Shown: positions 1 to 15,136 of the stretch, piece after piece | Position numbering within the stretch: the stretch's first letter is position 1 | Layout: every line of letters begins with the position of its first letter | Assembly (NCBI GenBank): GCA_037893245.1 | Contig: JBAIAA010000013.1 | Location: forward strand, 930,001-994,000 | Direction of reading: 5' to 3' | DNA: 64,000 nt | Source: Crossaster papposus | Lineage: Eukaryota; Echinodermata; Asteroidea; Velatida; Solasteridae | Notes under the pieces: generated by a model | What the model saw: the letters and a program-made list of their open reading frames with translations, nothing else | Databases searched by the model: none | What the model was told of the DNA's origin: nothing | Made by a program: the position numbers and the translations under genes

Positions 1-45
1 TAATTATTTTCTTGAAAGTGATTTCATTTTCATTACAAATAGTTA

Positions 46-117
46 CGCAGAGTGGTGCAGTGGGAGCGTGATGGGCCCATAACCCAGAGGCCCGAGGACC
101 GAAACCTCGCTCTGCTA
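46..117 (+). tRNA. Type B initiator-tRNA-like gene, anticodon CAT
   Basis: The 72 nt fit the cloverleaf: acceptor pairs 2-7 intact, D loop with G18 G19, anticodon loop CCCATAA with the three G:C pairs beside it that mark initiators, and a 5-bp T stem CGAGG/CCTCG. Departures from the usual initiator are C at position 1, which cannot pair with T72, an A:G mismatch at the foot of the anticodon stem, and T loop ACCGAAA in place of ATCGAAA. A TTTTT tract at 124-128 would serve as a Pol III terminator. This type recurs about every 801 bp (620, 1421 and so on). It may be an expressed variant or a pseudogene. Confidence 0.75.
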
Positions 118-221
118 AAGAGGTATTTTTGCTTCACTGTTATTCAAATTTAATAATTAGTTTAGAATGTTTTTAGAATGTCTGCTTTTATTTTGTTTGT
201 TGTTTTTCTAAATTTACATGA

Positions 222-293
222 GGCATGGTGGCGCAGTGGAAGCTTGCTGGGCCTATAACCCAGAGGCCCGAGGACCGAAACCTCGCTCTGCTA
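222..293 (+). tRNA. Hybrid C/B tRNA-like gene, anticodon TAT
   Basis: The 5' half is type C (GGCATGG start, anticodon loop CCTATAA) and the 3' half, from the variable region on, is type B (CGAGG, ACCGAAA, CCTCG, CTCTGCT). Such a switch inside one gene suggests unequal crossing over or gene conversion between neighbouring units. A T5 tract follows at about 300. The function of the product, if any, is unknown. Confidence 0.65.
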
Positions 294-12659: not shown

Positions 12660-12731
12660 GGCATAGTGGCGCAGTTGAAGCGTGCTGGGCCCATAACCCA
12701 GAGTGCCGAGGATCAAAACCTCGTTCTGCTG
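12660..12731 (+). tRNA. Hybrid A/C tRNA-like gene
   Basis: The 5' half is type A (GGCATAG, AGTTGAA D loop, CAT anticodon) but the 3' half is type C (GTGCCGAGG, ATCAAAA, TTCTGCTG). It sits in a C slot of the 801-bp unit. A second hybrid of the same make-up starts at 14664. Both suggest exchange between units. Confidence 0.6.
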
Positions 12732-15064
12732 CTAATAAGTTTTTGGTAAGACTTGAAGTACTCGACTCAGAGTGACAAAGTAGACCCTTTCTTGGTCAGT
12801 AACCGAGAGTTCGGATGATCACAACCTCGGTCTGCTCAGGATAATTTTGTATTTGATAGGGATTTCATTTTCATTAAAAATAGTTACGCAGAGTAGTGCA
12901 GCGGGAGCGTGATGGGCCCATAGCCCAGAGGTCCGAGGAACAAAACCTCGCTTTGCTAACTAGGTATTTTTGCTTCACTGCTATTCACATTTAATAAATA
13001 TTGTAGAATGTTTTTAGAATGTCTGCTTTAATTTTGTTTGCATTTTCTAAATTTACATGAGGCATAGTGGCGCAGTTGAAGCGTGCTGGGCCCATAACCC
13101 AGAGGTCCGAGGATCGAAACCTCGCTCTGCTAACAAGTTTTTGGTATGACATGAGGTACTCGACTCGGAGTGACAAAGTAGACACTTTCTTGGTCAGTAC
13201 CCGAGAGTTTGGTTGACCACAACCTCGGTCTGCTCAGGATAATTATTTTCTTGAAAGTGATTTCATTTTCATTACAAATAGTTACGCAGAGTGGTGCAGT
13301 GGGAGCGTGATGGGCCCATAACCCAGAGGCCCGAGGACCGAAACCTCGCTCTGCTAAAGAGGTATTTTCGCTTCACTGTTATTCAAATTTAATAATTATT
13401 TTAGAATGTTTATAGAATGTCTGCTTTTATTTTGTTTGTTGTTTTTCTAAATTTACATGAGGCATGGTGGCGCAGTGGAAGCTTGCTGGGCCTATAACCC
13501 AGAGTGCCGAGGATCAAAACCTCGTTCTGCTGCTAATAAGTTTTTGGTATGACTTGAAGTACTCAACTCAGAGTGACAAAGTAGACCCTTTCTTGGTCAG
13601 TAACCGAGAGTTCGGATGATCACAACCTCGGTCTGCTCAGGATAATTTTGTATTTGATAGGGATTTCATTTTCATTAAAAATAGTTACGCAGAGTAGTGC
13701 AGCGGGAGCGTGATGGGCCCATAGCCCAGAGGTCCGAGGACCAAAACCTCGCTTTGCTAACTAGGTATTTTTGCTTCACTGCTATTCACATTTAATAAAT
13801 ATTGTAGAATGTTTTTAGAATGTCTGCTTTCATTTTGTTTGCATTTTCTAAATTTACATGAGGCATAGTGGCGCAGTTGAAGCGTGCTGGGCCCATAACC
13901 CAGAGGTCCGAGGATCGAAACCTCGCTCTGCTAACAAGTTTTTGGTATGACATGAGGTACTCGACTCGGAGTGACAAAGTAGACACTTTTTTGGTCAGTA
14001 CCCGAGAGTTTGGTTGACCACAACCTCGGTCTGCTCAGGATAATTATTTTCCTGAAAGTGATTTCATTTTCATTACAAATAGTTACGCAGAGTGGTGCAG
14101 TGGGAGCGTGATGGGCCCATAACCCAGAGGCCCGAGGACCGAAACCTCGCTCTGCTAAAAAGGGAATTTTTGCTTCACTGTTATTCAAATTTAATAATTA
14201 TTTTATAATGTTTTTAGAATGTCTGCTTTTATTTTGTTTATTGTTTTTCTAAATTTACATGAGGCATGGTGGCGCAGTGGAAGCTTGCTGGGCCTATAAC
14301 CCAGAGTGCCGAGGATCAAAACCTCGTTTTGCTGCTAATAAGTTTTTGGTATGACTTGAAGTACTCGACTCAGAGTGACAAAGTAGACCCTTTCTTGGTC
14401 AGTAACCGAGAGTTCGGATGATCACAACCTCGGTCTGCTCAGGATAATTTTGTATTTGATAGGGATTTCATTTTCAATACAAATAGTTACACAGGGTAGT
14501 GCAGCGGGAGCGTGATGGGCCCATAGCCCAGAGGTCCGAGGACCAAAACCCCGCTTTGCTAACTAGGTATTTTTGCTTCACTGCTATTCACATTTAATAA
14601 ATATTGTAGAATGTTTTTAGAATGTCTGCTTTCATTTTGTTTGCATTTTCTAAATTTACATGAGGCATAGTGGCGCAGTTGAAGCGTGCTGGGCCCATAA
14701 CCCAGAGTGCCGAGGATCAAAACCTCGTTCTGCTGCTAATAAGTTTTTGGTCTGACTTGAAGTACTCGACTCAGAGTGACAAAGTAGACCCTTTCTTGGT
14801 CAGTAACCGAGAGTTCGGATGATCACAACCTCGGTCTGCTCAGGATAATTTTGTATTTGATAGGGATTTCATTTTCATTAAAAATAGTTACGCAGAGTAG
14901 TGCAGCGGGAGCGTGATGGGCCCATAACCCAGAGGTCCGAGGACCAAAACCTCGCTCTGCTAAAGAGGTACTTTTGCTTCACTGTTATTCAAATTTTATA
15001 AAAAATTTAGAATGTTTTTAGAATGTCTGTTTTCATTTTGTTTGCTGTTTCTCAAATTACATGA

Positions 15065-15136
15065 AGCATAGTGGTGCAGTGGGAGCGTGCTGGGCCCATA
15101 ATTCAGAGGTACAAGGATCGAAACCTCGCTCTGCTA
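15065..15136 (+). tRNA. Array-edge tRNA-like gene with A at position 1
   Basis: This last copy starts AGCATAG, so it has the A1:T72 pair expected of a eukaryotic initiator and absent from the inner copies. It combines a B-like D loop (AGTGGGA) with an A-like anticodon stem start (CTGGG) and T loop ATCGAAA. It also has its own changes: the anticodon stem 3' strand is TTCAG and the T stem is CAAGG. No T run follows closely, because the array stops here. Edge copies escape homogenisation, so this one may keep ancestral features. Confidence 0.65.

Follow-up and report, generated by a model that had tools for sequence, protein, structure and literature searches.

An amplified initiator-tRNA family and its 801-bp higher-order satellite in the sea star Crossaster papposus

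The window analysed here is a 64,000-nucleotide stretch of the Crossaster papposus genome (C13:930001-994000, in an assembly of 1,023,315,904 bases and 1841 contigs). We found that it holds two arrays of tRNA-like units in opposite orientations:

1-15136 (+): array 1, built of an 801-bp higher-order unit; 77 tRNA-like units of four types by BLAST (46-15136); extends upstream beyond the window
15065-15136 (+): terminal tRNA-like unit at the array edge, with 10 of 72 bases changed from the nearest type
15137-44728 (no strand): 29.6 kb of inter-array DNA carrying fragments of retrotransposons and a pair of 18S rRNA-like relics
44729-56290 (-): array 2, inverted, of the same 801-bp family; 56 tRNA-like units by BLAST (between 44785 and 56285)

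Across the window the Rfam tRNA model gave 102 matches above the gathering score, of which 60 fall in the forward and 42 in the inverted array, and ARAGORN made 22 calls, all of them tRNA-Met(CAT) (15 on the plus and seven on the minus strand). Chance tRNA likeness was rejected on the basis of these Rfam matches and the ordered BLAST units. The first-pass annotation had counted about 75 tRNA-like genes by eye with an 801-bp period, both borne out by our analysis, and had proposed covariance-model scoring as a check, which 102 matches pass. It had also placed the array at 1-15136. The right edge is exact, but the left limit is only that of the window, and the interval omits both the inverted array and a third monomer type described below. 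Upstream, at C13:880001-930000, array units occur across all five 10-kb stretches (n = 50, 47, 46, 35 and 50), and the forward array goes on for at least 50 kb beyond the window; the stretch with 35 units implies a gap or unmatched units. By eye, a solitary array-like tRNA 3' end can be seen at about 57027-57062 (-), 700 bases beyond the inverted array.

The two 18S rRNA-like relics between the arrays (16538-17251 and 39530-40570, both plus strand; 181.7 and 562.2 bits) are shortened or interrupted. LINE pieces with reverse transcriptase and endonuclease/exonuclease domains lie at 18047-20881 (-), 26564-27535 (+) and 35383-36591 (+). The segment 30656-34514 (+) is presumably a DIRS-like element, judging by its layout, with a reverse transcriptase (32182-33990) and, at 33621-34514, a weak integrase N-terminal match that falls short of the Pfam cut-off. 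At the far end, a 663-aa frame with a weak, below cut-off match to DUF7869 runs off the window (62009-64000, minus strand), and 75-bp tandem repeats occupy 63815-64000.

Within the arrays the repeat order is A, short spacer, B, long spacer, C, short spacer, D, long spacer, with a period of 801 bp (written A-B=C-D); the C-D-A-B order noted at first pass is a rotation of it. The unit at 620-1420 serves as an example:

620-691 (+): type A monomer, initiator-derived; Rfam tRNA 38.4 bits; C1, A27 mismatch, T55 changed to C
692-795 (+): short spacer, A+T-rich, with a T5 terminator-like run and no tRNA likeness
796-867 (+): type B monomer, initiator-derived; 33.7 bits; anticodon CAT changed to TAT
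902-973 (+): relic R1, a third monomer type within the long spacer; ungapped, 50/72 identical, z 12.3, 0/1000 shuffles
1023-1094 (+): type C monomer, initiator-derived; 32.1 bits
1197-1268 (+): type D monomer, the best preserved type; 36.3 bits, this copy having extra changes beyond the consensus
1300-1371 (+): relic R2, in the second long spacer; ungapped, 45/72 identical in the consensus, z 9.2, 0/1000 shuffles

Irregular orders occur as well, among others A-D, A--D and A-B-B. With periods of up to 500 bp, TRF reported 398 bp at 88% in the forward array; with longer periods allowed, it reported 801/802 bp at up to 98% (output pooled over 17 loci). Mean identity among 64 complete 801-bp units (23 from the window and 41 from nine other loci) is 97.9%, whereas the type consensuses A-D have only 55-65 of 72 bases in common. 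The repeat is thus a true higher-order one: diverged monomers lie head to tail and the multimer is more homogeneous than its monomers, as in satellites of this kind.

The identity elements of initiator tRNA are A1-U72, three G-C pairs in the anticodon stem, A54, A60 and the anticodon CAT. None of the four type consensuses of the 801-bp form is intact. They differ from the intact initiator at six positions in A (five in the upstream stretches), ten in B, ten in C and three in D, copies with the type D consensus reaching 49.8 bits. The window copies retain GGG/CCC, A54 and A60 but fall short of a functional initiator, as A1 is absent in all four types and the type B anticodon is TAT; furthermore, the B box or T loop is altered in types A, B and C. 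Runs of T5 resembling Pol III terminators remain 6-9 bases past all types, so that transcription of the decayed copies would be possible. As for the spacers, shuffle-scored alignment to the initiator detected no tRNA likeness in the short ones, and no common ancestry of short and long spacers was found (S1-S4, z 0.2; S3-S2, z -1.5).

In turn, every long spacer contains a stretch, relic R, that aligns without gaps to initiator tRNA (z 12.3 and 9.2), its score being reached by none of 1000 dinucleotide-preserving shuffles. The relic consensus shares 50 of 72 bases with the initiator in R1 and in a 398-bp form of the family (see below), and 45 in R2. Five other tRNAs of the genome (Lys, Thr and Cys) gave z values of at most 1.9 against 9-12 for the initiator, and a different tRNA species as the source of the relic was therefore rejected. 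R1 has no match to the Rfam tRNA model up to an E value of 10; in the relics the acceptor, D and T stems are partly broken and boxes A and B are lost, while the anticodon stem pairs at five of five positions. Given these relics, the 398-bp unit consists of three initiator-derived monomers and the 801-bp unit of six. The earlier claim that every monomer comes from the initiator tRNA thus holds and goes further, since it extends to the long spacers.

We observed no sign that the tRNA segments of the 801-bp form are under constraint. Between module consensuses they are no more conserved than spacers, with differences of 13/144 v 13/182, 9/144 v 14/182 and 14/144 v 20/182 (p = 0.54, 0.67 and 0.86), and within units their per-site variation is 0.0113, against 0.0091 in spacers. 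Constraint on these segments was accordingly rejected, and nothing suggests selection on them as tRNAs. The least variable segment of the unit is relic R (0.0037 per site; rank 4 of 801 circular shifts). Yet in the 398-bp form its variability is not significantly low (rank 41/397), and it differs between module consensuses at three, five and six of 72 positions, like the rest of the unit. We treat its low variability as a lead only.

Beyond the window, the 801-bp form was found on at least nine contigs (C13, C146 at 3.0-3.7 Mb, C262, C424, C463, C648, C723, C784 and C833) in a survey that scored 40 of 464 candidates; the full-length units across them are 93-100% identical, all but one at 98% or more. 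Units on C13 are 97.7-98.7% identical to those on C146 and C723 (two C13 groups; two units each from C146 and C723), much like the 97.5-98.3% found within C13. On C13 itself, matches lie on the plus strand at 53-57 kb, from 266 kb onward and at 880-945 kb, and on the minus strand at 95 kb and 975-986 kb. BLAST with the types detected no array in 3 of 12 further stretches sampled. Exact relic cassettes number 14,826 for the 801-bp form and 3292 for the 398-bp form, a ratio inflated by the greater variability of the latter; reversed controls gave none. At 398 bp each, exact cassettes amount to about 7.2 Mb, or 0.70% of the 1.02-Gb assembly, which is a lower bound for the assembly; the haploid amount may be half as large, should the two haplotypes have been assembled separately. 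The exact type D 72-mer occurs 4703 times.

The 398-bp form was found on C146, where five stretches within 4.42-6.40 Mb carry the family as A'-D' units along with A'-A' and D'-D' variants; in a sixth stretch, at 5.0 Mb, an array of this form is absent. In three of these stretches the D-class consensus is identical to the intact initiator, and in the other two it is off by one and by two bases; an exact intact D' was found in 12 of the 41 D-class units. The D' consensus carries all stems, A1-U72, GGG/CCC, A54, A60 and both boxes, and exact or top copies score 58.7 bits, so that by its sequence D' would qualify as a functional initiator tRNA. Genome-wide there are 1281 copies of the exact 72-nt intact initiator, 737 of which are flanked by an exact long spacer and 254 by an exact short spacer (991 together), the remaining 290 having other flanks. 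All 41 exact copies in the examined loci have array-like flanks, a count in which overlaps enter repeatedly and the loci were mostly picked for arrays. The intact-copy matches listed, about 100, are all on C146, and other contigs may hold such copies too. Within two mismatches of the 47-nt 5' part of the initiator lie 3607 places in the genome; a search for initiators with another T stem returned 34 matches, each retaining one strand of the array's T stem.

Selection on D' is suggested by its lower variability relative to A' (63/3166 v 165/3888, p = 7e-8) over five stretches, of which three had been chosen for their closeness to initiator matches; leaving out bait units gives 244/6537 v 514/9792. 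In the two blindly chosen stretches the difference is not significant (21/935 v 36/1152, p = 0.23), and across a pooled D' set the variability exceeds that of the spacers in 25 dimers (0.0318 v 0.0237).

We consider it probable that these arrays represent an amplified initiator-tRNA locus with two layers, an intact one of 398-bp units and an 801-bp satellite derived from it, now pseudogenised, that was dispersed in blocks. An initiator gene would have been tandemly duplicated to yield a unit of three monomers, about 398 bp long (A', D' and relic R). Of these, D' would have kept a perfect initiator consensus, A' would have been stripped of critical bases, and R would have decayed past recognition by the covariance model. 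Unequal exchange would then have extended this unit into the long arrays still found on C146. A sublineage in which the D initiator signature was lost as well would have doubled to the 801-bp unit, with six initiator-derived monomers and none intact in the consensus, and this unit would have been homogenised and subsequently carried in blocks, some of them inverted, to at least nine contigs, including the window. The direction, 398 before 801, follows if the intact gene is taken as ancestral, and is drawn from the genome of one species. The period, the homogeneity, the divergence of the terminal unit and the irregular orders can all be accounted for by tandem duplication, unequal exchange and conversion, and blocks of both orientations on C13 point to spread by blocks, some inverted. 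Most likely, some of the 398-bp copies serve as templates for initiator tRNA, and the 801-bp arrays of the window would be non-coding satellite. A relaxed gene family and an inert satellite, both suggested at first pass, would therefore each fit in part, with the intact genes on C146 and the decayed layer in the window. Several observations count against our explanation: D' is exact in only 12 of 41 units, its lower variability is not significant in the blindly chosen stretches and its pooled set varies more than the dimer spacers, the T5 runs persist, and the low variability of relic R would not be predicted by pure decay.

Those same T5 runs are what a very large working gene family would show, in which most copies, including decayed-looking ones, are transcribed, e.g., to stock oocytes, for which amphibian 5S and tRNA repeats offer a precedent. 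The 102 units above the tRNA threshold, the mostly pairing stems and the presence of high-scoring tRNA-Lys genes in arrays of the same genome agree with it as well. However, the loss of A1 in four of four types, the B-box or T-loop changes of types A-C, the changed anticodon of B and the lack of excess conservation in tRNA segments of the 801-bp form make this reading rather unlikely. The quietness of relic R in the 801-bp unit, together with long arrays on many contigs, would in turn fit a structural satellite, in which the 801-bp arrays form boundary or (peri)centromeric chromatin and the functional part is relic R or the binding of Pol III factors. Since the low variability of R does not reach significance in the 398-bp form, and since R changes between module consensuses like the rest and has no box A and B, we regard such a structural role as unlikely too.

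The copy number could also be largely a product of assembly, the two haplotypes having been left as distinct contigs or repeats having been expanded in error. An assembly of 1.02 Gb is large for a sea star, and C13 and C723 share one 801-bp unit at 100% identity. Nevertheless, units within arrays are about 2% apart and have their own rearranged orders, the two forms occur in different states on a single 6.9-Mb contig (C146), and retained haplotypes would at most about halve the counts; we judge this explanation very improbable. A tRNA-derived SINE was rejected, given that the units stand head to tail without an unrelated body or tail and that the 100 listed of the 14,826 cassettes, on C13, lie in blocks. 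Likewise, the proposed spread by tRNA promoters found no support, as the arrays form tandem blocks lacking SINE features.

Under the two-layer explanation that we prefer, it is conceivable, if doubtful, that the satellite provides the whole initiator-tRNA supply, every intact gene residing in 398-bp arrays of the same family as the dead higher-order layer. An essential gene would then be evolving by satellite rules (unequal exchange, homogenisation and block spread), selection keeping only an intact reservoir, and the dead layer would comprise tens of thousands of initiator relics beside intact copies. If the intact copies were the only initiator genes, one would also have to ask how the cell tolerates more than 1000 copies of the gene for translation start. 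The passage from gene to satellite appears visible within one genome, where perfect genes, part-decayed partners and relics invisible to the covariance model share one repeat, and where the gene-free higher-order form outnumbers its likely 398-bp parent. This makes testable from what source satellite monomers arise and at which point a gene array stops being one.

The arrays resemble known systems in part. Higher-order repeats of alpha satellite likewise consist of diverged monomers in a fixed order and include decayed layers, but those monomers are not genes. Xenopus oocyte 5S and tRNA repeats combine gene, pseudogene and A+T-rich spacer in one unit, as here; we know of no gene-free higher-order form among them, such as the one in this genome. 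In the literature searched, mostly outside subscription papers, we found no initiator-tRNA satellite with a higher-order unit, and nothing relevant on tRNA satellites of sea stars or echinoderms. In Hydractinia (PMC11067881), also an animal, tRNA genes are described in regularly spaced tandem arrays that hold tens to hundreds of nearly identical copies, and in Entamoeba (PMC2652664) in tandem array units with up to five tRNA genes. Both share with our arrays the even tandem spacing and homogeneous spacers, while the gene-free higher-order derivative and the initiator-only family set the sea star apart from what the consulted parts of these accounts describe (PMC11067881; PMC2652664). In pike, 5S rDNA exceeds 20,000 pericentromeric copies in blocks that are directly linked, parted by other DNA or inverted (PMC5437419). 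That is likewise a Pol III gene amplified in linked, separated or inverted blocks, yet it is 5S rather than tRNA, and its authors report, in the sections consulted, no significant pseudogenisation (PMC5437419), in contrast to the pseudogenised larger layer of the sea star arrays. The maize satellite tRNASAT_ZM, named after tRNA, differs, by its description rather than its sequence, in being a single plant array of 91.95 kb on chr4L, as given in the portion consulted (PMC10335936). The human 1q23.3 tandem repeat, of variable copy number and with a proposed CTCF boundary, also contains tRNA genes; according to the part of the report used here, they make up less than 6% of its 7.3-kb units, which are mostly non-tRNA (PMC4041453). 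Large tRNA numbers alone are not new, as the source, in the part used, gives more than 17,000 tDNAs for Nematostella and 20,000 for zebrafish (PMC2888827). The first-pass remark that no such example had been described is thus partly right: related tRNA arrays, the maize satellite and pike 5S rDNA are in print, and what appears to be new is the initiator-tRNA higher-order satellite.

Other tandem tRNA arrays were detected in the same genome. Copies of tRNA-Lys(UUU) are spaced at about 572/576 bp on C479 and C1268 and at about 770 bp on C424, those on C479 scoring up to 78.9 bits. Arrays of tRNA genes are thus a habit of this genome, the initiator family being the case that turned satellite. C8 (5.3 Mb) looks bacterial, as its COX1 matches read open with the standard code, its tRNAs are 76 nt long and long frames are dense; it is perhaps a symbiont or contaminant. 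C1841 (16,330 bp; bases 1-8000 examined) is mitochondrial: ARAGORN found 18 tRNAs, and its COX1 carries AAA at a site expected to be Asn and uses AGA for Ser. After F, E and T come I to P, which lie mostly on the opposite strand interspersed with ND2 and ND1, followed by COX1 and R. We take the codon use to be the echinoderm code and this arrangement to be a gene order of the sea star type.
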